From a virus, in the IMG/VR virus record IMGVR_UViG_3300024982_000006, positions 1 to 41,094 of that record: a stretch of DNA of 41,094 nt; one strand, 5' to 3'. The notes below the pieces were generated by a model that saw only the letters and a list, made by a program, of their open reading frames with translations, was not told the DNA's origin and made no database searches. Made by a program: the position numbers and the translations under genes. Shown piece after piece: positions 7,237 to 30,273 of the stretch (the first letter of the stretch is position 1; each line of letters starts with the position of its first letter).

Positions 7237-7279
7237 ATTCTGTTCAGAGCCGGTCGGCTCGGCAAACCCTACTGGGGGT
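7237..7279 (-). promoter_or_regulatory. Late-module promoter, copy 1 of 5
   Basis: The repeated box (7263-7279, minus ACCCCCAGTAGGGTTTG) ends in a -35-like TTGCCG at 7265-7260. A 17-bp spacer and a -10-like CAGAAT at 7242-7237 follow. The box begins on the stop codon of the upstream gene. The expected start near 7229 leaves about 20 nt before the SD-preceded ATG at 7208. An inverted repeat GAGCC/GGCTC lies in the spacer. This promoter would drive the ejection protein and the polyvalent protein. Confidence 0.6.
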
Positions 7280-9177
7280 TACAGTTCCTCGCTCTGCGAT
7301 GCCAGTGAATTCATTCCCGACATAGCTGCGCTGGCAAGTTGTGCGTAGGTCTGGGCATTGGAGTGACCCAGCTCTGCCAAGGTCTTGCCGAAGGTCTGCC
7401 GGCTGGCCACCGATGCGATACCAGCCTCCAGACTGATCCTGGCGTTGGCAATGGCGGCGTTGGATGTGGATCGGTAGTATTCCCCGTAGACGTTGGCGTT
7501 CGCCACTGCAAGCTGCATCTCCGCACTGAATGCCGTCAGCTTCTGGCGCTCGTTCTCTATCTGGCTGTTGGCCACAAGCGCCCGCGCCTGTACTTGCGTG
7601 CTGTATCCCTGCATGACGGCCGAATAGTTCGACGCCTTGGCTTGATTGGTGGCGGCCAACGCTCTGACAACCTCGGTCTTGGCTTCAACCTCGGCCTTGA
7701 CGGCGTTGACGCGGGCATTGAAGGCGCCCACCTGTGACTCATAGACCTTGACCAGTCCAAGTTGACCTTCGATCTGCGCCTGGTATCCCTGCCACTCGGC
7801 GTTCTTGCTCTGCACCAGCGTCCCGAATGCCTGCACTTCTGACTGGAACAGATCGACCTTCACCTTCTCGAATGTGGCTTCTCCCAACACAGCATCAATT
7901 TGCGCCTTCCATACAGAGGCGTAGGTGTTCAGGGTTTCGATGCGCGCCTTGTAGATATCAACCTTGGCACGGTCTACTTGCGTCATGGCCTGCAGCGCGT
8001 CGATCTCGGCCCGGTACAACTCGATGGTTGCCATGGCACTGCGCAACTTGGTCTCATGGATTGCGGCCTCCACCTTGTAGGCATCCAGCTTGATTCCGTA
8101 AGCCTTCACCGCCGTGTTGTAGACCTCGATGATGGCGCTCAGGACGTTCTTGGCATAGTCCAGCGCCTGACTGTTGAGCGTCGTCAGATTCTGCAAGTAA
8201 CTCAGCGATGCACTCAGCAGGGTAGATCGCAGACCGGCCGAAGTCGTCACGGCAAACTGCAGGTTCTTCTGTTCCATCTCGGCCTGCATCACCACGATCT
8301 CGCGCGCCGCCGTGGCGTTGATGTCGGCCGCCGCCTGGCGCGCGGTCTGGTTGCCAGAGGTCAGTGCCCCGGTCGGCAACGTGAAGCCGCGTGTTGCCGC
8401 ATCGGCCCAGTTGGCGTCCTGCACCCGGCGCGCCTCGGCGTCGGCCTTGCTGCGCGATCGGGTGTAGATGGCATCCTCCACGGCTGCCTTGAGGCCAGTC
8501 CCACCGGCCATGTAGGTTGCAAGCTGTGCCTCAATGGCTGCCATCTGCTCGGCAAAGCGCGGGTTGTACTTGGCCAGCATGGCGTCGACGTAGCCATCCA
8601 TCATGGTGATGGTTGATGGCGCCATGGACGCATAGGCTGATGTGAATCGGCTTTCATGGTCCGACGGCATCACGGTTGTATCAACCGGAGCAATTGCCGT
8701 GAACGCCGGCAGCGTCAACGAAGGTGCTGTCGGCTCTGTCCGCTCCGTCAGGATGGGGCTGGCCGGGAATGGATCTGTCAAAGCGGACGGCATGTCCGGA
8801 AACACCAGGCTGCTGCTCACCGTTGGTGATACCGCTGTGAAGGCCGCCACCGCAGACGGCTTGTCAGGCAGAGACAGCGTGGGCGAGGCAGTTGAGAATG
8901 TCGGAAAACTGACCGACGCGAACGGGCTGATGACATCGAACTCCGGCGCCGCTGCCGGCTCGGACGGAATCTCAATCACATGCTCCTCGAACGTGGGCAG
9001 TGTGACGGATAGTTCGGTTGGCGGAGGAGATGGAAGGGTGGCCGGCGTTCCATAGGGCTCAAAGAACCCGATCGAATTCATATTCGATACCGCGCTGCTC
9101 ATGGCATCTTCCGCCGCCGTGGTAACGGTGTCGGCGTAGGCCTGAGCGTTGGTGATCAGATCGGTTACGACAGACAT
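7279..9177 (-). CDS. Long helical tail/virion structural protein
   Basis: This 632-aa protein starts at the ATG at 9177, preceded by AAGGAG, one base after the stop of the gene upstream. Residues 40-180 hold repeated Pro-rich beta-type motifs of the form FP-x-SP-x-LxLPDxPSA. The remaining 430 residues are almost entirely helical with few Gly or Pro and regular hydrophobic spacing, indicating a long coiled coil or helical bundle. It lies between the tail-fibre-like genes and the ejection proteins. A role as tail needle, tail-tip shaft or ejected helical protein is possible; the sequence does not decide. The stop codon abuts promoter copy 1. Confidence 0.65.
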   Translation of the reverse strand: MSVVTDLITNAQAYADTVTTAAEDAMSSAVSNMNSIGFFEPYGTPATLPSPPPTELSVTLPTFEEHVIEIPSEPAAAPEFDVISPFASVSFPTFSTASPTLSLPDKPSAVAAFTAVSPTVSSSLVFPDMPSALTDPFPASPILTERTEPTAPSLTLPAFTAIAPVDTTVMPSDHESRFTSAYASMAPSTITMMDGYVDAMLAKYNPRFAEQMAAIEAQLATYMAGGTGLKAAVEDAIYTRSRSKADAEARRVQDANWADAATRGFTLPTGALTSGNQTARQAAADINATAAREIVVMQAEMEQKNLQFAVTTSAGLRSTLLSASLSYLQNLTTLNSQALDYAKNVLSAIIEVYNTAVKAYGIKLDAYKVEAAIHETKLRSAMATIELYRAEIDALQAMTQVDRAKVDIYKARIETLNTYASVWKAQIDAVLGEATFEKVKVDLFQSEVQAFGTLVQSKNAEWQGYQAQIEGQLGLVKVYESQVGAFNARVNAVKAEVEAKTEVVRALAATNQAKASNYSAVMQGYSTQVQARALVANSQIENERQKLTAFSAEMQLAVANANVYGEYYRSTSNAAIANARISLEAGIASVASRQTFGKTLAELGHSNAQTYAQLASAAMSGMNSLASQSEEL

Positions 9178-9178
9178 T

Positions 9179-10780
9179 TCAGATTCTCCTTGAGAGTTTG
9201 GCGACCTTGAAGTCGATGGAGTCAACAGCCAGTTCACCCGAGCCGTTGGCACCGAACGCGTAGTAGCGGTGGTCCCGGATTCCTTTGCCGAATTTCTGCC
9301 GGTAGTTCTGTGCCAGCTCGCCGCGCGGTGTCGTGTAGTGGTAGGCCTGTGTCTGCTCACCCTCGCCGGCGTACAGGGTCATCGTCGCGGCTGGTCCGAG
9401 TCTTCCGCCAAGGTAAGCCGACTCGATGGTCTTGAACTCCGGGTAGCCGAAGTCCGTCACCGCTGTCTTGAATGCCCACGGGATAGCGGTCGGTGTCGCC
9501 GCGTAGTCCGTGGTGCCTTCCAGCAGATACAGCCCTGTCTCATTGGCTCCGAAGTAGCTGTTCTGGTAGCGCACGATGTGGGTGAATGGAAAGTTGGTAT
9601 AGCGCGTCACTTCGTCGGGCGACTCGCCTGTGTGCTTGATGTTGACAGCGTAGGCTTCATAGGTGGCTGTCACCGTAGCCGTCCCGATGGCCGTCAGGGT
9701 CATCTCCGGCAAGACAATCCAGGCAGTTCCGGTCGGCGAGGCCATCAGCGCAGGCAGCGTCAACTCGGCGCTTCCGGAATCCTCCCGCGTCCCCGTTGCA
9801 ACCAACTCGAACAGCGGCAGCGTCATGGCGGCGTCGCCGGTTGCCCCGGTGAGGCCGGTTGCCGCCATGCCAAGAATTCCTATCGTCACGGAGCAGACCG
9901 CGCCGGAATAGCCGACCATGTCCAGCATAGGAAGTGTCGTATTCGACTTCCCAACGTCCGGTACAAGCCCGGTCCCTGCCCCAGCAAGGCTTGGTAGCGT
10001 CAGCTCGGCAATGCCCCACCCTTCCGTGATGCCGTCGCCAGAGAATGTCAGCGCCGGCAGTGTCGAGTTCGAGTTGGCACCCCCGAATCCCGCCAAAGTC
10101 AGCGCCGGCAGCGTCTGGATGACAGAGTTCTCGTCTACCGTCTCGTGCCCGGAACCGAATGCGGTTATCGCCGGCAGTACCGATGCCAGGTTGCTGCCAC
10201 CAGAGCCGACGAAGCTGAGCATCGGCAAGGTATTGTTCGAATTGATGGCGCCATAGCCCACCCCGGACATCGCCGGCAGATCGACAACCACCGACCCGCC
10301 CATGTCGCCGGTCACAAGCAGCATCGGAAGCGACTTGTTCAGTATCCCGGTGCTGGGCGGCATCTGGAAATACTCGGTGGAGATGCCTATCGCCGTATTT
10401 GCGGATGCAAAGGTTTGCCACAGAACCCAAGTAACGGCATCGTCAGAGTACGAGAAATATCCCGCCACCGGGTTGTTGGCCGTGCTGTTTCCGTTGACGA
10501 TGGTGATCGAGTTGATTTCTTGCTCGTTGCCGGCACCAAAGTCCCAATACACCCAGCCTGGAGCCGCAGCAGAGGAGTTCCAGTAGGTCGCAGAATTGGA
10601 GTCGAAAAGCTTGCTACCCTCATACCCGACAGAGGAGAATGAGCTTTCCGTCGCCGTGCCATTCCCGGTTGTGGCCAGGTTGGTACCGCCGCTCGTTGTG
10701 CGCAGCTCAAGGCCTGCAAACAGGATGGTGGTCGAGGTTACGTTGGAGACGTAGACTCGCCAGTAACGATGTGCTGCCAT
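9179..10780 (-). CDS. Tail-tip or fibre protein with discoidin-like domain and LPxL beta repeats
   Basis: This 533-aa protein starts at an ATG with AGGGGGA upstream. Residues 1-140 look like an F5/8-type-C (discoidin) galactose-binding-like domain: RYWRVYV, then LFDSNSATYWNSS, then WVYWDFG. Residues 145-365 carry about ten short repeats of the form LPxLxxxGxG, such as TLPALTLAGFGG, suggesting a beta-solenoid. Residues 370-533 form a separate globular domain with many Tyr residues (YAGEGEQTQAYHY). The layout fits a receptor- or polysaccharide-contacting tail protein. It is immediately downstream of the 785-aa tail protein (10 nt gap). Confidence 0.65.
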   Translation of the reverse strand: MAAHRYWRVYVSNVTSTTILFAGLELRTTSGGTNLATTGNGTATESSFSSVGYEGSKLFDSNSATYWNSSAAAPGWVYWDFGAGNEQEINSITIVNGNSTANNPVAGYFSYSDDAVTWVLWQTFASANTAIGISTEYFQMPPSTGILNKSLPMLLVTGDMGGSVVVDLPAMSGVGYGAINSNNTLPMLSFVGSGGSNLASVLPAITAFGSGHETVDENSVIQTLPALTLAGFGGANSNSTLPALTFSGDGITEGWGIAELTLPSLAGAGTGLVPDVGKSNTTLPMLDMVGYSGAVCSVTIGILGMAATGLTGATGDAAMTLPLFELVATGTREDSGSAELTLPALMASPTGTAWIVLPEMTLTAIGTATVTATYEAYAVNIKHTGESPDEVTRYTNFPFTHIVRYQNSYFGANETGLYLLEGTTDYAATPTAIPWAFKTAVTDFGYPEFKTIESAYLGGRLGPAATMTLYAGEGEQTQAYHYTTPRGELAQNYRQKFGKGIRDHRYYAFGANGSGELAVDSIDFKVAKLSRRI

Positions 10781-10789
10781 GATGTCCCC

Positions 10790-13147: not shown

Positions 13148-13159
13148 GCTCTGCCATGA

Positions 13160-13950: not shown

Positions 13951-15111
13951 CTAAAAACTATTGAAGGCGGAACCGCCTTGTTGAAGTGCGACGAGGTAGC
14001 GTTTCTGGCCACCGGTCTGCACGAGGGTTCCGCCAGCCGACAGGCCGGGGGCGACACTGACCCTGGATGCGGTCAAGTTGGTGAATGGCAAACCGGCACA
14101 CAGGCCCCGGGTTGACCAGAACAGGGTGCGGCCTTCGTCGTTGGTCCAGTGCTGGCCCGGCACGACGCCGTAGTCAGCAAGTAGCGTCAATCCGTCCGGC
14201 GTGTAGGCATGAATGGCCTTGTCGGTTCCGACGATCAGACCGGCGTCATGCGGCGCCAGCATCACCACCTTGCCCGGGACCATGAAGAAGTCGCGCGCCA
14301 GGTTGAACAGGTGAAAGCCCAGCGGCTGGCTGAACCAGACGGCGCTCTGATCGTTGGTGACGTCGTACTGGCTGGCGTAGATGCGGCCCTTCCAGGCTTG
14401 GATCACATCGCAGTCGGGTAGCGGGTCCAGTCCGTCCAGCACAAAGTCGCGCCCCAGGGCGTCCGGTGAGTGGTTCCATACCATGGCGGTACCGGATGGC
14501 GATGCTGCCAGCGAAAACACTGTGCTGTCGGCCGGCGCAATGTAGACATTGGAATCGGCTGGGATGCCGCTGATCTGTAGCGCCTGACCTTCCGTCAACA
14601 CCAGCTCAACCGGATCACTGGCGCCGGTCTCCCGGCCATCTGCCAGCCTGGTCGTAACCAGAACGCGGTACAGGCCCGCCGGCAGAGAACCGGTGACGGC
14701 CTGCACGGTCGGTGAGGATGGGATGTCCCAGCGCCAGGTCTTGCGGCTGTGGGCGCGGTTGAGGATGCCGCTGTCGGTGCCGTTGTTGTAGAACACCTGA
14801 TCGTTGATCTCGCACCAGAACATGCGCGCCGTGCTGGCCAGCGCCTGGATGGCCACGTGGTCCGTTCCGTTGCTCGACTTGAGCACGCCACCATCCACCA
14901 CGTAGAGACGTGAGTAGTCGCGGGTCGCGTAGGCGCTGGTGAAACTGCCGACAGAGGAGCGCGAGTAGCCGTCACGCCGTACCAGGCTTCCGGTGTCGGT
15001 CACGTTGACGTTGTTGGCCGTCACCAGCCAGCCCAATCCCAGACGCAGCGCATCGCTGACGTTGTTCAGGCCCAGGAATCGGTCGATCCTTGGAGGTGCG
15101 GAGGTAGCCAT
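13951..15111 (-). CDS. Putative tail protein with beta-propeller-like repeats
   Basis: This protein of about 386 aa starts MATSAPPRIDRFLGLNNVSD. N-terminal segments typical of phage tail-hub proteins (GLNNVSDALR, NNVNVTDTGSLVRRDGY) are followed by repeated short strands such as GRIYASQYD, GLIVGTDKAIHAYTPDG and GRTLFWSTRGLC, which suggest a propeller-like fold. Upstream in-frame TTG codons lie inside the promoter box and are unlikely starts. The predicted transcript from promoter copy 2 begins at about this ATG, and no good SD precedes it, so it may be translated leaderless. Confidence 0.65.
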   Translation of the reverse strand: MATSAPPRIDRFLGLNNVSDALRLGLGWLVTANNVNVTDTGSLVRRDGYSRSSVGSFTSAYATRDYSRLYVVDGGVLKSSNGTDHVAIQALASTARMFWCEINDQVFYNNGTDSGILNRAHSRKTWRWDIPSSPTVQAVTGSLPAGLYRVLVTTRLADGRETGASDPVELVLTEGQALQISGIPADSNVYIAPADSTVFSLAASPSGTAMVWNHSPDALGRDFVLDGLDPLPDCDVIQAWKGRIYASQYDVTNDQSAVWFSQPLGFHLFNLARDFFMVPGKVVMLAPHDAGLIVGTDKAIHAYTPDGLTLLADYGVVPGQHWTNDEGRTLFWSTRGLCAGLPFTNLTASRVSVAPGLSAGGTLVQTGGQKRYLVALQQGGSAFNSF

Positions 15112-15118: not shown

Positions 15119-15161
15119 ATGTTCCGCAATCCACCGCATTGCGGCAAACCCTACTGGGGGT
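15119..15161 (-). promoter_or_regulatory. Late-module promoter, copy 2 of 5
   Basis: The box at 15145-15161 is identical over 17 bp to copy 1. The -35-like TTGCCG is at 15147-15142, the spacer is 17 bp and the -10-like GAACAT is at 15124-15119. The spacer contains a 7-bp inverted repeat (CCGCAAT/ATTGCGG, partly overlapping the -35). It lies directly after the stop of the 68-aa gene and would drive the tail genes downstream. The -10 match is weak (3 of 6). Confidence 0.55.
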
Positions 15162-15370: not shown

Positions 15371-18220
15371 TCATTGCACGTAAATGTCCGTGCCGGATGG
15401 AGTGGACAGCACAGACAGATACTGGCTGACAGGGGCGCTCAACACCGATATGTCGGCGACGAAGTTCCGCACCGACGCGCCGCCGCCAAGGCTATGGGCA
15501 TAGAACACCGTCGTATTGCCGAACAGTCCCGGCAACAAGGAGACTGCGCCCGTTGCAACCGTCGCCGAATAGAAGGCGTTGAGATTGCTCAGGATGCTCG
15601 GCAGAAGTGTCGACCCGGCGTCGGTGACGGTCGGGGAATGGAATGTGTTGGTGTTGCTGACAAGAGAAGGCGTGAGGTCCACCGCACCAGCCCCTACCGT
15701 TGGCACGTGGAACAGCTGCGTATTGCTGAACAGGCCCGGGGCAACCGTCACGCCACCAACCGAGATCGAGGCAGCGTAGAAGACTGGCGCATTGGTGAAC
15801 AGATCAGGCGCCAATAGGAACCCAACCGTGATGGTTGCGCCGTAGAAGGTCGTCGAGTTGGTGACAAGTGATGGAGTCAGATCAACGGCGCCAACCGATA
15901 CGGTCGGAGCGTGGAAAGTGCTGGTATTCGTCACCAGCCCTGGTAGAACAGCAGGCCAGGCGCCGTCCGCAAACAGGTCCGACACTGACTTGATGACTGT
16001 CGCACCGTAATCCTTTGTCTGCGTCTCCGTCCATGTCAGGTCACGGGATGACTCAATGAAGGTTGCCAGCGGCGCTTTCCTGGTTCCATTTGCCCAGTAG
16101 CAGCTGGAATCAACTGGGTTATCACCAAAGGTGGTAATGCCGGCTGTGTAGACCAGCATCTTTGTCAGGAACGTCGAATAGAACGGCGATCCGGAGTAGA
16201 TGAAGTTCCCAGAATATCCGCCATGGAAATCGAAGAACGCCGCCACATTCTTGGTGCCCAAGTCGGTCGTGATGGCCGCCATCGTCTTGGTAGTGGACTC
16301 AATACCCGGCGTGGTTACCCAATGCCTGTTGGTGTCGTAGGTTGGGTTGACGGAATTGAAGTCACCGCGCCAGTGGCCGCCGTAGCGCCCCATTGGGTTG
16401 GTCATCGGGTAGATGAACCACTCGAAGTTCTTGCGCGCCGCAATAGCCTTGGCATCACTGCCGCACAGGAACTCCACCGCGCCCTGCAACATCCAGTTGC
16501 CAACGTCCTCGCTGGCATGTTGTCCGGCGATCATCACAGCTACGCGCTTTGCAGATCCGTCGGCGGGCTGCTGCGTGTCGTCGCTGATGCGCAGCGAATA
16601 CAGAGGCTGCGCCGGTATCGTGCGCCCGCGTTCGTCGGTCTGGGTGCCCATGGTGTCGGACACGTAGGACAACCCCGCCGAACTTGGCGGCATGGAGACG
16701 TAGGATGAATACGTGGATGCCAAGGAAGAAACCAGCGCTGCGGTCATCGTTCCCGTGTACGGCCGAATGCTGCAAACCCATACCGTGTCGCTGGTGAAAT
16801 CCGCGTTTTCCTTGAAGTCGATGTTGAGGTTGTCGCCGCTCAGCGCATGGGTGTCGAAGTAGTTCCATGTGACCTGGTCGTAGGACCACATGAAGCGCTG
16901 GCTGGACTGGAAAAACCAGCGGTCCAGGATGGTGGTGCTGGGCGTCTCGTAATACCTGACTTTCCAATTCGGCCGCTTGCCAAGCAGGCCCGTCACCCGG
17001 GCGTGGAACACCTCATAGCCTGGCGTGCCAGGGACGTTTTCACTGACCTGCAGGCGCGGGTAGATGCGGATGGTCGGCGCGTAATAGTCCTGGTCGATGC
17101 TGGACGCGCTGATGTTGATGTTGCCGCGCTCGTGATCGTCATGAAACTCGACCACCAGAATGACGGTAGGCGCATAGAAGCTGTTGGTGTTGGTGAACAA
17201 TGAGGGCGTCAGTCCCACCGATCCCATCGTCACCGTGGCAGCATGGAAGTTGCTGGAGTTCGTCAGCAGGCTCGGAGCGAGATTGAAATCACCTTGCGAA
17301 ACCGTTGCTGCATAGAAACTGTTGGAGTTCGTAACCAGCGACGGCGTGAGTCCTACCGCTCCGACTCCAACCGTCGCAGCATAGAACGTGTTGGTATTGG
17401 TGAAAAGACTTGGCGTCAGCGTCACGCCAGACGTAGCGGTATTCCTGCGATCCGCCATCAACGCAACCCGATGGGGATTCTCAAATAGCAGTTTGTGCTC
17501 GTTGGCGGTAAGACCTGATTCCGGGTGATCAAAGATCAGCTTCGGTCCCAGCATGCCGTCCCAACCGCGAATTCCGTCGGTGGAGCGGTTGCCGATGTCC
17601 AGCGTGATGCTGGCGGTTTGATAGTTTCCGGTCGAGGCCGTGACGACGCTGGTCGATACCACGGCGCCGTTTTTGTACATGGCCGGCGTGTTTCCCACCG
17701 TGCGCTGGTCGTGCGTGGAGCCGTAGCCAACCCAGGCGCTGAGCACCGGGGCACCAGAGATCGCCCACGCCCCGTTGGCTGCGTCGGTCACGCGCTGGTA
17801 AAGAATCTCGTAGCTGCTGGCTGACGAGATATACCAGCTCTCATCGCCAATGGTGTTGCCGGCCTTGCCGGCTGGCTGCATGATGCGGCCCAGATTGCCG
17901 CCGCCGTAGCCGTTGGCATAGCTGAACAGCAGCCAGGACCGGATGCCGCTCGCCGGGTCCAGCGACGGGCCATCGGTGCGGTCGGTGGTGCCCGTGCCGT
18001 GTGTCGTGCCGTAGCCTTTGACTGCGCCGTACTTCGCGGTGGTCTGCAGCTTGGGCGGGCCTACCCGGCTGGACGTGCCCTGCCAGCCGCCCTTTTTTGT
18101 CCAGATCCAGCCGTTGCCAACGTCGTACAGGACCAGCCCGCGCTTGAGCCAATACGGGTCAAGGGGGACCGGCCCGCTCGGCTGGGTTGTCCGAATGGTC
18201 TTGCGGCGCTTCACGGCCAT
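15371..18220 (-). CDS. Tail fibre with LamG-like N-terminus and embedded M14-type zinc carboxypeptidase flanked by 22-residue repeats
   Basis: This 949-aa protein starts MAVKRRKTIRTT. Residues 25-250 resemble a LamG/concanavalin-like domain (LKRGLVLYD, later GLTANEHKLLFENPHR). Residues 267-355 are four copies of a repeat of the form LTPSLxTNxxxFYAATVxxG. Residues 370-750 contain an M14 metallocarboxypeptidase pattern: zinc ligands H568 and E571 (GQHASED) and H666 (DFHGG), substrate-binding N631-R632, and putative catalytic E732 (TWTET). Spacing is close to carboxypeptidase A and cytosolic-carboxypeptidase-like enzymes. Seven more repeats (about 757-916) follow. Such an enzyme could trim peptides or peptide cross-links at the cell surface during adsorption, or act on a surface protein. 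The substrate is not known. Confidence 0.8.
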   Translation of the reverse strand: MAVKRRKTIRTTQPSGPVPLDPYWLKRGLVLYDVGNGWIWTKKGGWQGTSSRVGPPKLQTTAKYGAVKGYGTTHGTGTTDRTDGPSLDPASGIRSWLLFSYANGYGGGNLGRIMQPAGKAGNTIGDESWYISSASSYEILYQRVTDAANGAWAISGAPVLSAWVGYGSTHDQRTVGNTPAMYKNGAVVSTSVVTASTGNYQTASITLDIGNRSTDGIRGWDGMLGPKLIFDHPESGLTANEHKLLFENPHRVALMADRRNTATSGVTLTPSLFTNTNTFYAATVGVGAVGLTPSLVTNSNSFYAATVSQGDFNLAPSLLTNSSNFHAATVTMGSVGLTPSLFTNTNSFYAPTVILVVEFHDDHERGNINISASSIDQDYYAPTIRIYPRLQVSENVPGTPGYEVFHARVTGLLGKRPNWKVRYYETPSTTILDRWFFQSSQRFMWSYDQVTWNYFDTHALSGDNLNIDFKENADFTSDTVWVCSIRPYTGTMTAALVSSLASTYSSYVSMPPSSAGLSYVSDTMGTQTDERGRTIPAQPLYSLRISDDTQQPADGSAKRVAVMIAGQHASEDVGNWMLQGAVEFLCGSDAKAIAARKNFEWFIYPMTNPMGRYGGHWRGDFNSVNPTYDTNRHWVTTPGIESTTKTMAAITTDLGTKNVAAFFDFHGGYSGNFIYSGSPFYSTFLTKMLVYTAGITTFGDNPVDSSCYWANGTRKAPLATFIESSRDLTWTETQTKDYGATVIKSVSDLFADGAWPAVLPGLVTNTSTFHAPTVSVGAVDLTPSLVTNSTTFYGATITVGFLLAPDLFTNAPVFYAASISVGGVTVAPGLFSNTQLFHVPTVGAGAVDLTPSLVSNTNTFHSPTVTDAGSTLLPSILSNLNAFYSATVATGAVSLLPGLFGNTTVFYAHSLGGGASVRNFVADISVLSAPVSQYLSVLSTPSGTDIYVQ

Positions 18221-21396: not shown

Positions 21397-22671
21397 TTAG
21401 GCCAGGCGAACGGCCGTGTCGATCGCCATCACGCCGTAGTCGGTGTATTGGCTGGAGTCGCCGTGGTCGATGAGGAAGCGGATCTTGCTGCGGCCATTGA
21501 TCGCACCCAGCAGGATTTCCAGCTTGTCGCCATGGTCCAGTTCCTTCTCGCTCAGGAAGTACGGCATGCCCGTCTTGGGATGCTTGCCCCAGGCTTCGGC
21601 CAGTGCCTGACCACCCAGCAGAATCGCGCGATCCACTGCGTAGGTGGTGCTGAACGCTGCCGGCACGAGGTCGGTCGAGGTCTCCGTTTCCGTGGTGTAG
21701 CTGGCGCAGTAGCGCAGGCTGTCACCGGCATAGAATCGGATCGGCTTGGGCATCTTCACGATCAGAATGCCGTTCCACAAACCGGCTTCACCGCAGAACA
21801 GCGGATTCATTCCAGCCTGTTGGGCGCGCGCCATCGCGTTCGCCTGCAGCGTGCGGAAACCAGTAGACTGAACGAAGCTGGTGTACTGCTCGCTGGAGAC
21901 CAGCAGAACCCGAACCGGCGCATCGCTGGCCATCTTGTCGCCTTCGAAGACGACCGGAGGAGGCGGCACAGCCATCGAGTCGACCAGCGTGCGAATGCCG
22001 TCAACCACGTCGGCGTTGAGCACGTCAGTGGTGGCGATGCTGATTTCGCTGCCGGCCGCTGCAATGTGCTCGATACCGGAACCCGTGGACATGTAGTGCC
22101 GGTTCTTGGTAGGTGCCTTGACGGTGTTGATCGCGATGGACGCAAAGTCAGCATCGCTTGCCTTCGGTACTGCCCATTCGATGTTGTCGTGGAAGCCACG
22201 GGCGCCGGCCAGGTGCGTCAACACCAGTTGGTCGGACAGACGGCCCATGTAGTTCTCGCCCAGAGCACGGGCCAGCTTGCGCAGCTCATGCGGGGTGCGT
22301 TGCTGCGTCATGGTGTCGCCAGCAGAGATCGGGTAGCGCGCCTGGTTGATGCGCAGACGGTCCTGACTGAACGACATGGAACGACCCAAACCCTCGGCGT
22401 TGTTGGCGCCCATGATGGGTTTTCCGCCCATCGGGTTGATCAGGTCGAAAGTGATTTCGTCACCGGCCATCTTCTGCAGGTCCATGCAGCGCACGATCGG
22501 CATTTCGCTGCTCGACTGTTTGCGGATGGTGGACTCGGCATCAGCCTGTTGCGGGAACTTGCCCGTCAGGCGACCGATGGTCGTATTGCGCTGCATGTTG
22601 GCAGCGAACAACCCAGCGGACTGGATCGTGATGGCCTGCGGCGAACCGTAGGGAAGACTGGTAACAGACAT
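21397..22671 (-). CDS. Major capsid protein, N4-gp56-like family
   Basis: This 424-aa protein starts MSVTSLPYGSPQAITIQSAG after GAAGGAG. The segment around residues 45-85 (SEMPIVRCMDLQKMAGDEIT, then INPMGGKPIMGANNAEG) is characteristic of the N4-gp56-like capsid family. A following conserved block includes INQARYPISAGDTMTQQRT. The length fits the family (about 400 aa). The gene lies between scaffold and decoration genes, as expected. It would form the icosahedral shell in the HK97-like fold assigned to this family. Confidence 0.85.
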   Translation of the reverse strand: MSVTSLPYGSPQAITIQSAGLFAANMQRNTTIGRLTGKFPQQADAESTIRKQSSSEMPIVRCMDLQKMAGDEITFDLINPMGGKPIMGANNAEGLGRSMSFSQDRLRINQARYPISAGDTMTQQRTPHELRKLARALGENYMGRLSDQLVLTHLAGARGFHDNIEWAVPKASDADFASIAINTVKAPTKNRHYMSTGSGIEHIAAAGSEISIATTDVLNADVVDGIRTLVDSMAVPPPPVVFEGDKMASDAPVRVLLVSSEQYTSFVQSTGFRTLQANAMARAQQAGMNPLFCGEAGLWNGILIVKMPKPIRFYAGDSLRYCASYTTETETSTDLVPAAFSTTYAVDRAILLGGQALAEAWGKHPKTGMPYFLSEKELDHGDKLEILLGAINGRSKIRFLIDHGDSSQYTDYGVMAIDTAVRLA

Positions 22672-22727
22672 GGAAATACTCCTTCAATGGGACTTGGCTG
22701 CGCCATCCCGGCGCTGCCGTATAAGGG

Positions 22728-23657
22728 TCAAAGAACCCGGTTCATCAGGGCGTTGATCTGCTCTGGCGTCTTGCCTTCGAACATGCTCAAAATCCCCGTA
22801 CTTGACATATCCAACATCGCCGATGCCTGGTCGGTGTGCGCTGCAGAACCTGCCGGAATCTCCGACAGACTCGTAGGCGGCGCCGACTGAGCCTTGGCAA
22901 TGGCTGCTTGCGCAGCTGCGGCGGCTACCGTTGGCACGGCGGTCGTCGCGAGTTTTGCGGTGGAACTCTTGAAAGTGTCCAGAAGCTCGACCACATCGGC
23001 CGCACTGCCTTGAGCAATCACGTTCCTGATGGCGGAACGCGCAAAGCTGGGCTGCGACTCGATCCAATCGTTCATCTGCTTGCTCTCAACCACTGACTCC
23101 ACATCGGGGTGCGCCTTGTAGATCGTCGAGAAGTGCTCGTCTGCGGCGCTGATCTGCTGCTGTTGCTGGATGGGCTCCACCACAGCGGCCAACTTCGCCT
23201 CAAACTCTGCCTTGATTGCCGCCGTTTCCAGGGCAACCGTCTTCTTGATGCCTTCCTTGATCGCGTCATCCGAGTAGTCACCGAAATCCACGCTGTCAGC
23301 CGCTCTGGCTGGCTCGCCTGGTGCTGCTTGGACCGGAGCACTTTTCAATGCCTCGATCTGCTGCTGCGCCTGCTCTGCGACGGTCTTCCAATGCTTCTCG
23401 GCTTCCCGAGCCTCTGTCAGCTTCTCGAATGGGATGGTGTGAACACCGTCCTTTGCGAGAATCACCGGCTGCGTTTCCGCTGCTGGTGTTGCTTCCACTT
23501 TGGCCTCTGGTTCTGGCTTGACTTCTGCCGCGACGGCGGGCACGTCGCTTTCCGTTTTCACGGTATCGCCCTCTTGCAAGCTCAGCATTTGCATCGCCTG
23601 CGCATCGGTCAACTTGCCATCAACTTGATTGGCCTCGAAAAACTCTTCTATCTTCAT
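22728..23657 (-). CDS. Putative scaffold protein
   Basis: This 309-aa protein starts MKIEEFFEANQVDGKLTDAQ at the ATG at 23657, with AAGGGTGA upstream. A longer reading to 23756 would cover the structured leader and is rejected. It is acidic and helical with Pro/Glu/Ala-rich stretches at 45-70, and has a coiled-coil region (EAEKHWKTVAEQAQQQIEAL). The C-terminal helix MFEGKTPEQINALMNRVL is a plausible capsid-binding end, as in P22-like scaffolds. Position just before the capsid gene supports the call. Confidence 0.75.
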   Translation of the reverse strand: MKIEEFFEANQVDGKLTDAQAMQMLSLQEGDTVKTESDVPAVAAEVKPEPEAKVEATPAAETQPVILAKDGVHTIPFEKLTEAREAEKHWKTVAEQAQQQIEALKSAPVQAAPGEPARAADSVDFGDYSDDAIKEGIKKTVALETAAIKAEFEAKLAAVVEPIQQQQQISAADEHFSTIYKAHPDVESVVESKQMNDWIESQPSFARSAIRNVIAQGSAADVVELLDTFKSSTAKLATTAVPTVAAAAAQAAIAKAQSAPPTSLSEIPAGSAAHTDQASAMLDMSSTGILSMFEGKTPEQINALMNRVL

Positions 23658-23797
23658 GTCATCACCCTTGCCACATGTCGCCGTGGCCGCGTTGAAGGGC
23701 TTGCTCTTACGAGTCAGGGGCCGAAGCCCCGTTCTCTCCGTCTCAGGGAACCCCACTGCTTCACAGCGTTGGGCTCTGCTACCTCTCCCGAGGTTGC
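23658..23797 (-). ncRNA. Structured 5' leader of the scaffold-capsid transcript
   Basis: If transcription starts near 23797 from promoter copy 3, the 140-nt leader holds consecutive hairpins. These are 23794-23781 (5 bp with GGGA, a GNRA loop), 23768-23754 (5 bp), 23751-23731 (7-bp arms with one mismatch), 23730-23717 (GGGGC/GCCCC with TTCG loop) and 23713-23704 (CTC/GAG with GTAA, a GNRA loop). GGGCTT of the fourth hairpin can also pair with AAGCCC at about 23702-23697, giving an alternative fold. The fold was found by eye. A role in mRNA stability or translation control is inferred. Confidence 0.5.
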
Positions 23798-23803
23798 AAG
23801 TGA

Positions 23804-23846
23804 ATCATCCGGCTACTGGCGCGCGCGGACAATCCCTACTGGGGGT
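23804..23846 (-). promoter_or_regulatory. Late-module promoter, copy 3 of 5
   Basis: The box at 23830-23846 differs by one base from copies 1 and 2. The -35-like TTGTCC is at 23832-23827, the spacer is 17 bp and the -10-like GATGAT is at 23809-23804. The predicted start near 23797 falls three bases before the first hairpin of the structured leader. It would drive scaffold, capsid and decoration genes. Confidence 0.6.
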
Positions 23847-23850
23847 CAGC

Positions 23851-24513: not shown

Positions 24514-24573
24514 GATGGATCTCCATGTTTGGCTATTTAGATACCGTCCGGTTGCGCCACGACCATTCGGTGT

Positions 24574-25185
24574 TTACCCCTGCAGCACGACATGCGTAAT
24601 CACGCCTGACGTGTGGCTGTTGATGTCCACGCGCACCGCGCTGACCGGTGTCGTGTAGCCGCCGTCGGTGCTGGCCGTCTTGCCGGTCAATGCCGACAAA
24701 TTGAAGGCCGGCGAGTTCTCGGTAGGCGGGATGTCGAATGTGTGCTGGCCGTCGAAGTTGCATGAACCACTGACCAGGTACACAGCAGCAGACGCCCCGA
24801 ATGGCAAGCGGGACGGGTCCAGATCGACCCATGGCGTATGTCCTGTTCCAGCCCAGCCGATGTCGAAGGTATCGGCGCCGATGGTTGCCGATGGCGTGGC
24901 ACTGGTCAGCGTCTTGAATGCCTTGGTGCTGGTCACTGTGGCGGAAGTGCCTGGCGCGGCCAGCGTCTCTGTCAGTGCCTCGCCATTGGCCCCGGTTCCG
25001 ACCAGAACAATGGTCTTGGCAGCGTGGTCTGTCACGGAGTCATTGCGGATCGTCACATGGTGCGCGATGCCGTCTGCGGCGCCTGCGGTGGCAATCGTCC
25101 AGGATGCTCCAGTGACGTTGGAAGCGTGGCCAGTCAGCGATGCCGCTGCCAGGGTGAAAGTGGTTCGGGATGGGTAGCGGTTCAT
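24574..25185 (-). CDS. Putative head protein, beta-rich
   Basis: This 203-aa protein starts at the ATG overlapping the portal stop (ATGA). It is Thr/Ala/Gly-rich and predicted all-beta (TFTLAAASLTGHASNVTGASW), with one Cys. Translational coupling to the portal suggests a head role, perhaps a decoration or head-fibre subunit. The family was not recognised. Confidence 0.6.
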   Translation of the reverse strand: MNRYPSRTTFTLAAASLTGHASNVTGASWTIATAGAADGIAHHVTIRNDSVTDHAAKTIVLVGTGANGEALTETLAAPGTSATVTSTKAFKTLTSATPSATIGADTFDIGWAGTGHTPWVDLDPSRLPFGASAAVYLVSGSCNFDGQHTFDIPPTENSPAFNLSALTGKTASTDGGYTTPVSAVRVDINSHTSGVITHVVLQG

Positions 25186-27422
25186 TGCATTGCTCCAAGG
25201 TTGTCAGTGGTGCGCGCCGTCTCGATCCCGGTCATGGGCGAATCGGCCTGCTGTGGGACGGGTGGAAGTTGTGGGCTGGTGTTCTGCTTCACATCCAGCG
25301 GCGGCGCAGCAATTGCTGCGGGCTGCGGGAAGTTCGGGTCAACTCCGGCCGGTGTTGGAGGCTGGTAGCCGGCGCCCTGCATCACGACATCGGCAATCGG
25401 TGCGATCTGCGGCATGGTGGCGATGGTCTGGCCGGCTTGCATGGACGCGAAGGCGGCTTCTACACCAGTCTTGACGGTCTCGGCGATCAGCTTTGAAATC
25501 TGCGCCATCTGCAGTTCAGCCTTCAGGTCCAGTTCGCGCGACTTGAGATCGTGATTGGCTTGAGCCAGGGCAGTCTTCACGGCTTCGTCGATCTTGGCCT
25601 GAACCTGCTCGGGTGTCGCCTGATTCTTGGCCTCTTGGATCGCCTTGATGATGTCGTCCTTGTTGGGCATGTCCATCAATGCCAGCAGATGCGGAAGTGC
25701 CACGATCTGCAGTTCCTGCGGCATGCTCTTGAAGGCTTCGGACAACGCAGAAACCTGCTGAGCGCGGAAACTCGATGTCGTCGGCACATCCGACACAGCC
25801 ACCTTGAGACGGATGCGCTGAACGTCGTTGTTCAGGTACTGCATGCCGCTCTCATCCGTCATGGGCTCATTGAGCCTGACAGTTCGATCCGGGATCACGG
25901 CATTGCCGCGAATCAGCACTTCCTGTGGCTGATCGGCCATGTCTTCGATGATCATGGACAACAACAGCTCTCCCACCTTGGAGCGGGCAAACTTGAAGTT
26001 GTCCATCAGGCCGGCCAGAGACTGCGTGGCCTGCTCGATCTGGGTGTTTTCCTGTACGCCGCTGGTGGCAGTTCCCTTCTGGCCCTGGAAGCCCGATGTG
26101 ATGCCACTGGCGCGCTCGATGCCGTTGCGTGAGTCCTGCAGCATCTTGTACTGCTGCTCTGTGAGTTGAAAGTCGCGCTCTACCTTGAACACGGCTCCAG
26201 GCTTTGCCATGTGTTCTTCATTTAGCACGATGTCGGCATCCACCCGGGAAGCCTGCTGCCTGAAAATCTCGTCCGAGTAGCTGACAGCGCCCTTGGTGCG
26301 GATCGTGCGAGTGGCCGATAAGCCCCAGCGAATCTTGCTGGTGGCAGAGTTCACGTTGTCCTGCAGGTAGACCATGCCACGGACACGTCCGAAAGGAACG
26401 CCGGTACGGTCTTCGCGCTGACCCCAGAACGGCACGTAGGGGAAATCGCTGTGCTTGTATGGCGTCGGGCCGTCGTAGAGCTTGTGCGGACCCATCCAGA
26501 AGCTCACGTACATCCTGGCGACAGTGGCTTTGCTCGGGCGAATGCGGCCACTGGCCAGCGCCAGCACGTGCACGGCGTTGCTACCGTCGTATTCCACGAC
26601 ACGACCATCCGGCGTCTTGAGCACCGTGACCGACTCCCAGCGCCGATACCAGACCTCAAACAGACAAACGCGGCCATTCTCAGCATCGCGCCATTCCTGC
26701 TCTTCCACGCTCCAGCCGCGTTGATCTTCCCAAGCCATCGCCATCTCGGTCGATGTTCCACCGTCTGCCGTGGCCGCGAACTGATCAGTCCAGCGCCCAT
26801 TGGTACGGTCGATCAGATCGGCATGCTTGGGAAACTTCAACTTGACCTGAGCGACATCACTCCAGCGCCGACGCACCAGATAGCGGGCATTTGGCAAGCC
26901 GGGCTCGCGGTCCAACATGTCCCAGAAAATCTCGTTTCTGTGCACAGCCTTGCAGCGGTAGGGGAATTTGAACGGGTCAGACTCTCGCGCCACCTCGACC
27001 CAGCCGATACCAACGCAGGTTTGCGGCTTGAAAGCATCGGTGCAAGCCTTATCAGCGCCGCTGTTGCGCTCAGCTTGGTTGAGCTTGTAGTTCAGTGCGT
27101 CGGCAACGTCGTCGCCGTCATCACCGTCTGGCGTCACGCGCCAGTCTGTTCTGGTTTTCGCTTCCAACCCCACAACAGCTTCAATGGCCGGGCCAATCAG
27201 AGGCTCGATGGCGGGCGGCATGCCGATCTTGCGCTGCGCCTCCAGAACCTCGCTGTTGAGCTGGTTGCCGTCAACATAGTCCATTTCCTTGTCCGCCTTG
27301 GCACGCCAGGCCGGCTGGTTCTGGATCTCGTAGAACCATTTGGTAAACGTCGACAGCGACAGGCCGGCCTTGTCAGGCTGGTCAGTGTTGGTCATGGTGG
27401 CTGGACTGATTGAATTGGTCAT
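25182..27422 (-). CDS. Portal protein, P22-like
   Basis: This 746-aa protein is close in length to the P22 portal (725 aa). It carries the family's N-terminal features: a helical start with FTKWFYEIQNQPAWRAKADK, YVDGNQL, and PAIEPLIGPAIEAVVGLEAK. Further on come WDMLDREPGLPNARYLVRRR and a long helical barrel-like C-terminus (residues 500-640, LAQANHDLKSRELDLKAEL). The portal forms the dodecameric DNA channel at one capsid vertex. The start overlaps the terminase stop (ATGA); an internal ATG ten codons in is an alternative. Confidence 0.85.
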   Translation of the reverse strand: MTNSISPATMTNTDQPDKAGLSLSTFTKWFYEIQNQPAWRAKADKEMDYVDGNQLNSEVLEAQRKIGMPPAIEPLIGPAIEAVVGLEAKTRTDWRVTPDGDDGDDVADALNYKLNQAERNSGADKACTDAFKPQTCVGIGWVEVARESDPFKFPYRCKAVHRNEIFWDMLDREPGLPNARYLVRRRWSDVAQVKLKFPKHADLIDRTNGRWTDQFAATADGGTSTEMAMAWEDQRGWSVEEQEWRDAENGRVCLFEVWYRRWESVTVLKTPDGRVVEYDGSNAVHVLALASGRIRPSKATVARMYVSFWMGPHKLYDGPTPYKHSDFPYVPFWGQREDRTGVPFGRVRGMVYLQDNVNSATSKIRWGLSATRTIRTKGAVSYSDEIFRQQASRVDADIVLNEEHMAKPGAVFKVERDFQLTEQQYKMLQDSRNGIERASGITSGFQGQKGTATSGVQENTQIEQATQSLAGLMDNFKFARSKVGELLLSMIIEDMADQPQEVLIRGNAVIPDRTVRLNEPMTDESGMQYLNNDVQRIRLKVAVSDVPTTSSFRAQQVSALSEAFKSMPQELQIVALPHLLALMDMPNKDDIIKAIQEAKNQATPEQVQAKIDEAVKTALAQANHDLKSRELDLKAELQMAQISKLIAETVKTGVEAAFASMQAGQTIATMPQIAPIADVVMQGAGYQPPTPAGVDPNFPQPAAIAAPPLDVKQNTSPQLPPVPQQADSPMTGIETARTTDNLGAMQ

Positions 27423-28942
27423 AGTCGCCAGTCAGGTGGGGGGGGCGGGTTGTAGGCGCTCATCGAGCCTGGCGACGGAATACCAGAGACAAAGGTCATG
27501 GCCACTGCGTCACCCTTGTCAGGAGAGCGCCCAAGCGCCTCGCGTATCTCGTCCTTGTCACGGATCTGGATCGCGGCAACCTTGCCCATGCTCACGACCT
27601 TGTAGCGAACCGCACAGAGGTCTTCTGTCAACTCCGGGTCAGGAGGCAAAGAGATGGGGTCAGGATTGGTAGGGTCCAGTGCCTCGCGCATGCGCCAGTA
27701 CATCTCGGCGCGCTTGTTCTTGAAACGCAGTTGGCCAGCCTTGTCGGACAGTCCACTCGATGCAGAACCAACTACGGGCAAGACCAGCAGATTCAGGCCG
27801 ACGATGAAATCCAGCGCGCTTGATCCGATACCGATACTGTCAACGCAGACGCAGGCACCGTTGCGGATGAGTGGCACGATGAAGCCTGCTGCGGTAGGAC
27901 CATCCTTAACCACGGCTCCAGGAACTGACACCATCTCGTCGAACCAAGTCCCATGGCGTCGCGCCGCCGTGCTCTTGTCTTGTCCGCCGCGTGTCGGATC
28001 GAATCCGATCGCCGTCATCGGCCCCTTTGTGTCTTTCTTCACCCACCGCGCTTGTGCAGCTTTCACCCATTCGGTGGGTACAAGTTGCCATGCCGGGTCA
28101 CTGGCGCCGGCCTGAAAGTCACCGCGCAGCATCTGACTGCGCAGGGGCTCGGGAAGCGACTGCAGCGTCGCCTTGTAGCCGGTGGAAGCGAGAAACAGGT
28201 TGTCATCGACGTTGGACGGAATGAATGTTCTGCTCTTTGGCGTGAACCAATCCGCGCCGACCTTGACCGGATCGCCGCTTGGAACCTCCATGTCATCGCC
28301 ATTGACATCTGTGACATACCAGCGCAGTTCTCCCGGCTTGGCTGGGTTCGGATGTGTCGGATCGAGCCACGCTGCCCAAAAGCGCTTCACCCACTGACCT
28401 TCACTCGAAGTGGGGGGATTCCCGGCGCAGACCACGCGCTGGCGCTGGCTCGGGTCATCGGAGCGCAGCCAGCCTATCAGCGCGCGAAACTGGGCTTCCG
28501 TGAAGTGGGGCAGCTCGTCAAACGCCTTCAGGTCATGGGCGCGGCCCTGATACTTCATCCAGTCGTCTGGCTGGGCAACGCTGCCAAGCTCCATCACACG
28601 CCCGCCAGGAATCCTCCAGACGCCGGACTGTGAGTTGTAACCGGTGCGCGTTCCCAGAATCCGCGTCATGTCCTCCTCAAGGCCAGTCAGCTGCACCGCC
28701 TCGCGCCTGAAGATGATGGAACGCTTGTGAGCCGTCAGTGACAGTCCCAGCATCAGGCTGGACTTGCCGCCTCCAGCCGATCCGCCATAAAACAGGATGT
28801 CAGCTTGGGACTCGTAGGCCATGCGTTGCGGCCCGGGTTGAGGAACCCATACCGGAACGCTCGCCAGTAGTTTGTCAAGCTCGGCCTTGTCGGCCTGCGA
28901 CATGCGCGCGATGGTCTCCATGGCCTCAGTGGTCGTGCTCAT
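27419..28942 (-). CDS. terL: Terminase large subunit
   Basis: This 507-aa ATPase-nuclease motor packages DNA into proheads. The ATPase domain has Walker A GGSAGGGKS (53-61), Walker B ending in D141-E142 (LKAFDEL) and coupling motif CAGNPP (171-176). The RNase H-like nuclease domain has acidic residues D314 (GFDPTRGG), D367 (VDSIGIG) and D477 (KGDAVAM). The length and all key residues are intact, so it should be active. It overlaps the upstream terS by four bases and the portal downstream by four. Confidence 0.95.
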   Translation of the reverse strand: MSTTTEAMETIARMSQADKAELDKLLASVPVWVPQPGPQRMAYESQADILFYGGSAGGGKSSLMLGLSLTAHKRSIIFRREAVQLTGLEEDMTRILGTRTGYNSQSGVWRIPGGRVMELGSVAQPDDWMKYQGRAHDLKAFDELPHFTEAQFRALIGWLRSDDPSQRQRVVCAGNPPTSSEGQWVKRFWAAWLDPTHPNPAKPGELRWYVTDVNGDDMEVPSGDPVKVGADWFTPKSRTFIPSNVDDNLFLASTGYKATLQSLPEPLRSQMLRGDFQAGASDPAWQLVPTEWVKAAQARWVKKDTKGPMTAIGFDPTRGGQDKSTAARRHGTWFDEMVSVPGAVVKDGPTAAGFIVPLIRNGACVCVDSIGIGSSALDFIVGLNLLVLPVVGSASSGLSDKAGQLRFKNKRAEMYWRMREALDPTNPDPISLPPDPELTEDLCAVRYKVVSMGKVAAIQIRDKDEIREALGRSPDKGDAVAMTFVSGIPSPGSMSAYNPPPPPDWRL

Positions 28943-29640
28943 GGCAGAGGACCAACCTTGGACATTAGGTAAGCCAGCTTGACAGCCCGCTCGGCGTCCG
29001 TCATGCCGGTTGGCTTGGTCGGGTCTTCTTCGCCTCCATAGTCAATGCCAAATGCCTCGCGCTCTCCTTTGCGGACCTTTTCATCCACATCGGCCAGCTT
29101 CTTCAAGTCATCGACCAGGGCGCTGCGTCCCATTGCCTTCCTGAGTGCATCGTGGGCTCGGTCCACGCCATTGTCGTCTGGCTTGCGCACCATCTCAATG
29201 ATCTCAGCCAAGTCCACCATGTTTTCGGCTGCTTGTTCGATCTGAGCCAGCAATTTGCGCTTGACTTGCGTGATGCTATTCAGGCCCTTGCGGTGCCCAA
29301 GGATCACGTTTGTGTTGACCTCGGCAGCAGCAAGAACCGTATTGCTGACTTTCTGCTGACCCTCGCTAACTTCCTTGCTGACTAATTGCTCGATCAACTT
29401 GGCGTTCGTCGCCTGCTTGATGGCAATTGCGAGGTCTTGTGTCCACCCGTCCTTCTTTGCCTTACGGGATATGAGACCATTGTTCGCACCATGCTTAGCT
29501 TCAAGCTCGCGCAGCGTGAACTTCCCGGTTCGATAGTCTCTCTCGACAGCTTCCCAGTCAGTGCGCTTCTTCTTGCCCGCAGCGCCGCCAGCCTCTTTTG
29601 AGGCGTTCAGCACGTGGCTCTTGGATTTCGATACCGTCAT
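28939..29640 (-). CDS. terS: Terminase small subunit
   Basis: This 233-aa protein has an N-terminal helix-turn-helix region (residues 28-66: WEAVERDYRTGKFTLRELE, then KHGANNGLISRKAKKDGW). A long helical oligomerisation segment and an acidic C-terminal tail follow. It should recognise the packaging site and stimulate TerL. No SD precedes the ATG at 29640, and the predicted start from promoter copy 4 (about 29641) coincides with it, so leaderless translation is likely. Confidence 0.8.
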   Translation of the reverse strand: MTVSKSKSHVLNASKEAGGAAGKKKRTDWEAVERDYRTGKFTLRELEAKHGANNGLISRKAKKDGWTQDLAIAIKQATNAKLIEQLVSKEVSEGQQKVSNTVLAAAEVNTNVILGHRKGLNSITQVKRKLLAQIEQAAENMVDLAEIIEMVRKPDDNGVDRAHDALRKAMGRSALVDDLKKLADVDEKVRKGEREAFGIDYGGEEDPTKPTGMTDAERAVKLAYLMSKVGPLP

Positions 29641-29648
29641 GCATACCG

Positions 29649-29692
29649 ATGATGCTGACGACTGGGGTTATGGACAAACCCTAGTGGGGGGT
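29649..29692 (-). promoter_or_regulatory. Late-module promoter, copy 4 of 5
   Basis: The box at 29675-29692 reads ACCCCCCACTAGGGTTTG on the minus strand, with one extra C and ACTA in place of AGTA. The -35-like TTGTCC is at 29677-29672, the spacer is 17 bp and the -10-like CATCAT is at 29654-29649. The box overlaps the TAG stop of the HNH remnant. It would drive terS, terL, portal and the two head genes. Confidence 0.6.
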
Positions 29693-29836
29693 GCGCTCCC
29701 CGATGGGCCGCCAATCAGTAACGTCCCAATTGCCTTTGCCATGATTGCAGTCCCCGCAAAGAACTTGCAGATTGTCCATGGACAGGGCTAGGTCAGGAAA
29801 AAGCAGCGCTGAGGTCGTCTTTTGCTTCTTTGACAT
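29681..29836 (-). pseudogene. C-terminal half of an HNH endonuclease
   Basis: A 51-codon frame encodes DLALSMDNLQVLCGDCNHGK followed by GNWDVTDWR. This is the typical C-terminal half of phage HNH nucleases that lie beside terminase genes. The N-terminal zinc CxxC and the catalytic His of an HVDHIKP-type motif are absent, and the frame closes upstream with a stop. Either the gene is a degraded remnant or a short independent peptide starts at the ATG at 29836. The last codons form part of promoter copy 4. Confidence 0.6.
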
Positions 29837-30009
29837 GCTGCTCTTCTCATAGCTATGCCGGGTGACTGGTGAGAGTCACGATCTCCATTGATGCTGTTCA
29901 TCTGCCAGTCCATCAACCAAGTGCCGCAGTGGGGCAGGTCATCGCAATATCGGCACAGGCTGTCACATCCGGCTATTGCTGCTCCAGTCGCCTTGCCAAC
30001 GCTGGAACG
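29788..30009 (-). pseudogene. Cys-rich fragment without start codon
   Basis: An open stretch of 73 codons contains SLCRYCDDLPHCGTWLMDWQ followed by MNSINGDRDSHQSP, a conserved-looking Cys/Trp-rich segment. No ATG, GTG or TTG precedes it before the upstream stop. It overlaps the HNH remnant in another frame. It looks like a relic of a small phage gene; a frameshift joining it to neighbouring frames is possible. Confidence 0.4.
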
Positions 30010-30101
30010 TCACGGTTGGTCGTTCCGTGGCGCGTGTTTCTCGGGTGCGGCCCATGCAGGCCCGGTAGCTGCGTCAGTAGCGCCCTGACCACAAACGCAA
30101 A

Positions 30102-30187
30102 AGTCCTAAAACTGCTGCGTTCCTGATGCAGCCACATCAGTCCGGTTGCCCGGCCGGTTTCCCGGTAAACGCATGAGTTTTAGGACT
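30102..30187 (-). ncRNA. Four-way-junction structured RNA
   Basis: The minus strand tiles into four helices. P1 pairs 30187-30169 with 30120-30102 (12 bp plus 5 bp, separated by a 2x2 internal loop). P2, 30165-30154, is CCGG-GAAA-CCGG. P3, 30153-30142, is CCGG-GCAA-CCGG. P4, 30140-30123, is CTGATG/CATCAG with loop TGGCTG. Both tetraloops are GNRA only on this strand. The P4 loop can pair with CAGCCA just upstream (30212-30207), a possible pseudoknot. A sigma70-like promoter places +1 at about 30187. Position at the early/late boundary suggests a cis-acting antitermination or regulatory leader, or a small RNA. Confidence 0.65.
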
Positions 30188-30194
30188 CGTGGGT

Positions 30195-30223
30195 ATTGTC
30201 TCAGTGTGGCTGCACATTGACAA
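30195..30223 (-). promoter_or_regulatory. Sigma70-like promoter ahead of the structured RNA
   Basis: The -35 is TTGTCA (30223-30218, 5 of 6), the spacer is 17 bp and the -10 is GACAAT (30200-30195, 4 of 6). The start is predicted at 30187-30188, the first base of helix P1. It may be the main late promoter, comparable in place to lambda pR'. Confidence 0.55.
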
Positions 30224-30228
30224 GCCCA

Positions 30229-30273
30229 ATCTTCGTCATGTCGCTACTTCGCATCAATCCTTAGTGGGGGGGT
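30229..30273 (-). promoter_or_regulatory. Late-module promoter-like box, copy 5 of 5 (divergent)
   Basis: The box at 30255-30273 reads ACCCCCCCACTAAGGATTG and contains the stop codon of the zinc-ribbon gene. The TTGATG at 30257-30252, 17-bp spacer and GAAGAT at 30234-30229 keep the arrangement of the other copies but match consensus poorly. It may instead be an activator site for the promoter at 30195-30223, lying roughly 70-85 bp upstream of that start. Confidence 0.45.

Follow-up and report, generated by a model that had tools for sequence, protein, structure and literature searches.

Phage lambda possesses one late promoter (pR'), which is controlled by antitermination through Q. In P2 and P4, multiple late operons share one conserved site and depend on the small phage activator Ogr/Delta and the sigma-70 polymerase of the host; the activator sites of P2 are centred near -55. 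In phage Mu, the activator C is found next to the -35 element of four late promoters (lys, I, P and mom) (PMC4461284). We analysed the virus record IMGVR_UViG_3300024982_000006 of IMG/VR, a stretch of 41,094 bases (the window) whose late genes, located on the minus strand, resemble those of Pseudomonas phage F116. Five copies of a short box are present in the window. They are probably activator sites of sigma-70 late promoters, which would be switched by a winged-helix protein encoded at 31545-31895. Late-gene control of F116-like phages seems to be undescribed so far, as a literature search, which did not cover the 2005 F116 genome paper, yielded no paper with ACCCCCTGTAGGG, the box, its regulator or F116 late promoters.

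The search for ACCCCCASTAGGGWTTG with up to 3 mismatches on both strands of the window gave exactly five matches, all on the minus strand, whereas 100 dinucleotide shuffles of the window contained 0.16 boxes on average, 2 at most and never 5. This confirms the five equally oriented copies described in an earlier note on this DNA. In all five, a NANNAT hexamer (A at position 2, AT at the end) follows 24 nucleotides (nt) past the last G of the box, and this -10-like hexamer is placed 17 bp beyond a TTGNNN -35 element, at the fixed distance that had been proposed. The box sequence said to be common to all copies was recovered five times, but copy 5, the weakest box, has TAAGG instead of TAGGG and two extra C, and copy 4 contains one extra C. 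Transcription starts predicted from the -10 positions (7229, 15111, 23796, 29641 and 30221) agree within one base with those expected earlier (7229, 15112, 23797, 29641 and 30222). The boxes and the genes putatively served by them are:

7263..7279 (-), box 1 (ACCCCCAGTAGGGTTTG); -35 TTGCCG at 7260-7265, -10 CAGAAT at 7237-7242, predicted start about 7229
5418-7265, virion gene putatively served by box 1; 615-aa (amino acid) frame with a likely ATG at 7208 and the Shine-Dalgarno sequence GAAGGG
15145..15161 (-), box 2; -35 TTGCCG at 15142-15147, -10 GAACAT at 15119-15124, predicted start about 15111
13951..15111 (-), head-closure Hc3-like gene, putatively served by box 2; the predicted start is the A of an in-frame ATG (predicted leaderless)
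23830..23846 (-), box 3; -35 TTGTCC at 23827-23832, -10 GATGAT at 23804-23809, predicted start about 23796
22728..23756 (-), gene at the scaffold position, putatively served by box 3; PHROG 479, unknown function
21397-22671, major capsid protein gene downstream of 22728-23756, putatively served by box 3
29675..29692 (-), box 4; -35 TTGTCC at 29672-29677, -10 CATCAT at 29649-29654, predicted start 29640-29641
28939..29640 (-), terS, small terminase subunit gene, putatively served by box 4; PHROG 1206, E 1.8e-48; predicted start at the ATG, leaderless
30255..30273 (-), box 5; -35 TTGATG at 30252-30257, -10 GAAGAT at 30229-30234, predicted start about 30221

The modules assigned earlier to the boxes held for scaffold and capsid (box 3) and for packaging (box 4). 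However, we found the head-closure gene instead of a tail module downstream of box 2, and an untranslated RNA instead of a protein gene downstream of box 5.

Besides small and large terminase, the late genes of the window encode a P22-type portal, a capsid protein, an SU10-type adaptor and the head-closure protein Hc3. The capsid protein matches the Phage_capsid_3 profile (E 4.3e-134), and the portal, a member of the P22_portal family, exhibits 54.6% identity to the F116 portal. Homologs of portal, capsid and adaptor are arranged in the F116 gene order, as is characteristic of F116-like (Hollowayvirus-related) phages. Judged by these homologies, the window is a fragment of an F116-like phage, an assignment made at this level and not at that of the genus. 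The left end of the window interrupts a giant open reading frame (ORF), at least 1807 aa long, with matches to those PHROG families that F116p59 matches as well. The five boxes are therefore a lower bound for this phage, and the lysis region with the box expected there falls outside the record.

Portal-based scans provided 80 viral and 48 prophage loci as relatives, belonging to Pseudomonas, Acinetobacter, Psychrobacter, Comamonadaceae, Rhodocyclaceae and others; boxes were counted in 132 F116-like loci (viruses and prophages). For a loose box pattern we counted 234 matches on the late strand versus 12-13 on the opposite one, and with the -10 letters included the counts were 145 and 0. The common architecture is CCC..STARGG abutting a TTGAC-like -35, followed after 17 bp by a -10-like hexamer. 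Conserved columns in non-redundant copies are the CCC, S-T-A-R-G-G, the TT of the -35 and A2 and T6 of the -10 (A in 31/36 and T in 28/36 for the unselected -10 columns), while the spacer is unconserved. The -10 spacing is conserved even among distant relatives; both core elements are weak, with TTGNNN or TNGAC as -35 and NANNAT or NANACT as -10. The box itself is an imperfect dyad, CCC-N(3-6)-(A/G)GG, with the core ACCCCCTGTAGGGTTCGAC in most relatives, CCCGGCATAGGG in several Comamonadaceae phages and CCCCCCACTCTGGG in some freshwater contigs.

Although about 87% of the sequence is coding according to a naive ORF call, 97 of 124 boxes were intergenic. The other 27 are located in opposite-strand ORFs (20), many of which are probably not genes, or in same-strand ORFs (7, four of these within the last codons). 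In the relatives, boxes are positioned upstream of terS, of scaffold and capsid genes and of an adaptor or tail block, and in F116 upstream of terS, p42, p58 and the lysis genes (holin). The F116 boxes are located at 22727 for terS, about 28680 for p42, about 45730 for p58 and 59201 for lysis. This restriction to the late strand and to mostly intergenic sites differs from the neutral repeat scattered inside the genes of relatives that the earlier note had named as the finding that would speak against its promoters. Together with the conserved -10 spacing, the comparison of sequences supports the idea of promoters equipped with an activator-like box. The regulon had been taken to be specific to this phage; instead, the boxes mark the late regulon of F116-like phages generally. 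One contig (L020 1-110) carries the box in both orientations near its end (36 minus, 85 plus); this is probably an artefact of a fold-back during assembly.

The last G of the box is situated at about -38 and the dyad centre at about -42 to -43, abutting the -35. This is the geometry of a class II activator site (site abutting the -35, centre near -41.5), and a conserved A2/T6 hexamer at fixed spacing from a -35-like element is what is expected of a sigma-70 promoter. In 21 of 33 non-redundant terS promoters the ATG was found 6, 7 or 8 nt past the -10. The location of the terS ATG at the expected +1 independently supports both the -10 and a transcription start located about 38 nt past the box; the box centre is thereby placed near -42. 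The terS mRNA would begin at the ATG or within one or two bases of it. In the window the leaderless geometry applies to terS (ATG 29640) and to the Hc3 gene (ATG 15111). In many terS promoters, a short and perfect dyad (CCCGG-NNNNNNN-CCGGG) encloses the -10 and extends up to the ATG; it may serve as an autoregulatory operator. Examples are:

L035 4778-4830, terS promoter dyad
L083 7426-7480, terS promoter dyad
L097 7589-7645, terS promoter dyad

The candidate for the protein acting at the box is encoded as follows:

31545..31895 (-), candidate late activator; 116-aa winged-helix protein, PHROG 8117, homolog of F116p37 (171-aa ORF in L024)

The profile of PHROG 8117, a family whose function is listed as unknown, matches over the DNA-binding domain (E 1e-26 for the window protein, 4.2e-77 for F116p37), and homologs were detected by profile search in 92 of the 132 loci. 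The F116p37 gene is located directly upstream of the F116 terS promoter, and the winged-helix gene is the most widely conserved gene on the early side of terS. An AlphaFold model of a relative (mean predicted local distance difference test score, pLDDT, 91.8) comprises a winged helix, a three-stranded sheet and a C-terminal helix of 52 residues.

Presence of this gene goes along with presence of the promoters. With the 98th percentile of the opposite strand as threshold for the promoter matrix score, 77 of 79 loci with the winged-helix gene were above threshold, and the remaining two have visibly variant boxes; median scores were 27.5 (loci with the gene) versus 3.5. Only 4 of 15 loci without the gene in reach exceeded the threshold, three of them by one chance match inside the portal gene. 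In the fourth, L115, the winged-helix gene was found on another contig of the same assembly (E 1.7e-60). No winged-helix gene was detected in the whole genome or record of L099, L022, L122 and L042. A Pseudomonas clade nested among the carriers (L044, L046, L047, L049, L054, L099) has neither the winged-helix gene nor the usual box, but exhibits another late box (TTGC..AGTCACATAGCG, 26 on the late strand versus 0 on the opposite strand), and appears to have swapped both late regulator and promoter box. Given that the promoters are real, the protein at 31545-31895 is quite likely the late activator.

Several results weigh against this assignment. Structure comparison of the domain gave weak matches, the best being winged-helix regulators of the ROK and IdeR/DtxR types, with a Foldseek E of no better than 0.005. 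With 116 aa, the protein of the window is shorter (helix 97-115), and most of the C-terminal coiled coil is missing. The window also encodes two small helix-turn-helix (HTH) proteins of its own. On the portal tree the absences of the winged-helix gene amount to three changes, or two after the correction for L115, one of them being that of the nested Pseudomonas clade, and these are few independent events. In a partial Mantel test, box and winged-helix divergence showed no correlation beyond the portal (partial r 0.019, p 0.37), whereas the link between box and portal was retained (0.44). Since presence and absence provide few independent events and a finer co-evolution was not seen in this test, we only infer the assignment of the activator.

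It is conceivable, but unlikely, that the promoters are real and activator-dependent while a different protein, of phage or host, binds the box and the winged-helix protein has another function. The GerE-like protein at 32109-32312, the HTH_23-like protein at 31892-32116 or a protein encoded with the late module might then be the binder. The divergence of the box, which tracks the portal tree and not the winged-helix protein, would agree with this, as would the HTH matches in both small ORFs (GerE E 1.5e-7; sigma-70 region 4 below cut-off). However, fewer than three related loci contain relatives of the small HTH ORFs, whereas the winged-helix gene is present in almost all loci with boxes whose upstream sequence is long enough. 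Both ORFs (minus strand) adjoin the winged-helix gene on its upstream side and are not conserved in the relatives. The earlier note had suggested them as regulators; it is the winged-helix protein, not these two, that is conserved with the box.

Quite improbable is a function of the box as repressor operator or as loading site of a Q-type antiterminator. Contact of the dyad with the -35 would be just as compatible with a block of RNA polymerase, and the candidate gene is positioned like Q with respect to the late region. However, weak core promoter elements suit activation, the site does not cover the -35 but stops at about -38, on its upstream side, and Q acts at a single promoter, whereas here the site is found on 4-5 spread promoters. 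It is very hard to believe that the box alone constitutes the promoter for a phage-type RNA polymerase, either T7/T3-like or an N4-like hairpin recognized by a virion polymerase that resides in the giant late protein: the boxes are indeed small, same-strand, intergenic and present in several copies, with a GC stem around a short loop and a resemblance to ACCCTCACTAAAGGG, which we take to be the T3 promoter core, and F116p59 weakly matches PHROG 2206, the N4 virion RNA polymerase (E 3.8e-9), but this match is confined to the N-terminal part (positions 187-649 of 3406), PF00940 was not detected in F116, 10 related contigs or the window (T7 control E 9.9e-110), and neither the conserved -35/-10 at fixed distance nor the ATG 37-38 nt past the box has a place in that model.

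Further leads were rejected. The geometry does not fit an N4-type hairpin promoter, and F116p59 matches the N4 polymerase profile by its N-terminal part only. For a phage sigma factor there were weak HTH matches below cut-off in two ORFs of the window and none in the relatives tested. A CsrA-type RNA site was dismissed, as most copies are devoid of the GGA core and the fixed spacing to the -10 argues for DNA. A likeness of GGTTCGA to the tRNA T loop was set aside because this part varies between copies (TTTT, TTAG, TTGG). In the structural gene block of F116, F116p47 (L024 18164-18370) is annotated as CsrA-like, a possible second, post-transcriptional layer of late control.

According to the activator reading, host sigma-70 RNA polymerase would use late promoters with a weak -35, a 17-bp spacer and a weak -10. 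The winged-helix/coiled-coil protein, encoded just before the late region, would act as activator, its dimer on the box at about -42 contacting the alpha subunit as well as region 4 of sigma, as in class II activation. Once made, it would turn on the genes for packaging (terS), scaffold and capsid, connector and virion proteins together, with leaderless mRNAs of terS and Hc3, and the same switch at box 5 would turn on an untranslated structured RNA. We infer the starts at these promoters, the binding of the protein to the box and the activation by this binding from sequence data.

The RNA downstream of box 5 was delimited as follows:

29850..30221 (-), structured, pseudoknotted RNA; 3' end uncertain

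Apart from a 48-codon HNH-like remnant, the stretch between boxes 5 and 4 contains no protein gene, and it folds well, with a z-score of -3.07. The RNA was found in seven freshwater phage contigs (including the phage of the window) of at least two phage types, always adjoining terS, terL or portal. The other carriers are:

L016 about 1640-2010
L144, L145, L146, L149 and L152

In its 5' part, two helices (10-14 and 10-13 bp) cross each other; they vary in sequence between contigs but remain paired, a pattern that identifies this part as a covarying pseudoknot; the 3' part, 200 nt, is highly conserved. We obtained no match to the RNA in Rfam, nor in phage or plasmid collections. A box promoter is located directly upstream of the RNA in the window and in L016, and in the window the RNA would be transcribed from box 5; the remaining carriers seem to have other promoters. 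The element may function in packaging as an RNA, mark a DNA packaging site or represent a mobile RNA element. A packaging role of RNA is so far known for the packaging RNA of the phi29 type. It is a rather doubtful extension that PHROG 8117 is an unnamed late-activator family across the F116-like phages of Gamma- and Betaproteobacteria which here also switches a pseudoknotted RNA acting in packaging or assembly. The 48-codon ORF (29690-29836, minus strand) ends inside box 4 and resembles the C-terminal end of an HNH endonuclease (DNLQVLCGDCNHGKGNWDVTDWRP; PHROG 144, E 4e-4). On the upstream side of box 5, a gene for a Lar-like restriction-alleviation protein adjoins (30261-30656, minus strand; PHROG 599, E 8.9e-9).

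Three other proteins of the window contain recognizable domains. The giant protein (1-5421, minus strand) matches MutS domain I at residues about 911-974 (PF01624, E 4.1e-8, above cut-off), a 949-aa late protein (15371-18220, minus strand) has a zinc carboxypeptidase (Peptidase_M14) domain, and a 533-aa protein (9179-10780) has an F5/8 type C carbohydrate-binding-like domain.

The scope of these results is a regulon shared by a phage group, beyond one phage. Promoter positions are proposed for many prophages of Pseudomonas, Acinetobacter and Comamonadaceae, leaderless terminase mRNAs are predicted, and the family PHROG 8117 receives a concrete, testable putative function. The analysis of box 5 also revealed a structured RNA, unlisted so far, in the neighbourhood of packaging genes. 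Late control throughout the group can now be tested in the cultured phage F116.

Compared to the described systems, the arrangement proposed here shares with Mu the separate late operons, one small dimeric phage activator (here a candidate) upstream of a poor -35, the host RNA polymerase and a non-consensus -10. In contrast to Mu, F116-like phages have a different box, a winged-helix and coiled-coil candidate, several predicted leaderless genes and, in the regulon of the window, a structured RNA; the Mor/C family (PF08765) was found in none of seven F116-like records, one control genome being positive. As in P2 and P4, one conserved site recurs across multiple late operons, but the F116-like box is centred at about -42 and not near -55, and the Ogr/Delta zinc finger (PF04606) was likewise detected in 0 of 7 records (E. 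coli control positive). Like the gene for lambda Q, that of the candidate regulator closes the recombination-gene (NinB) region and is followed immediately by the late genes. Unlike lambda, however, F116-like phages would employ 4-5 dispersed promoters, each with a box at -42.

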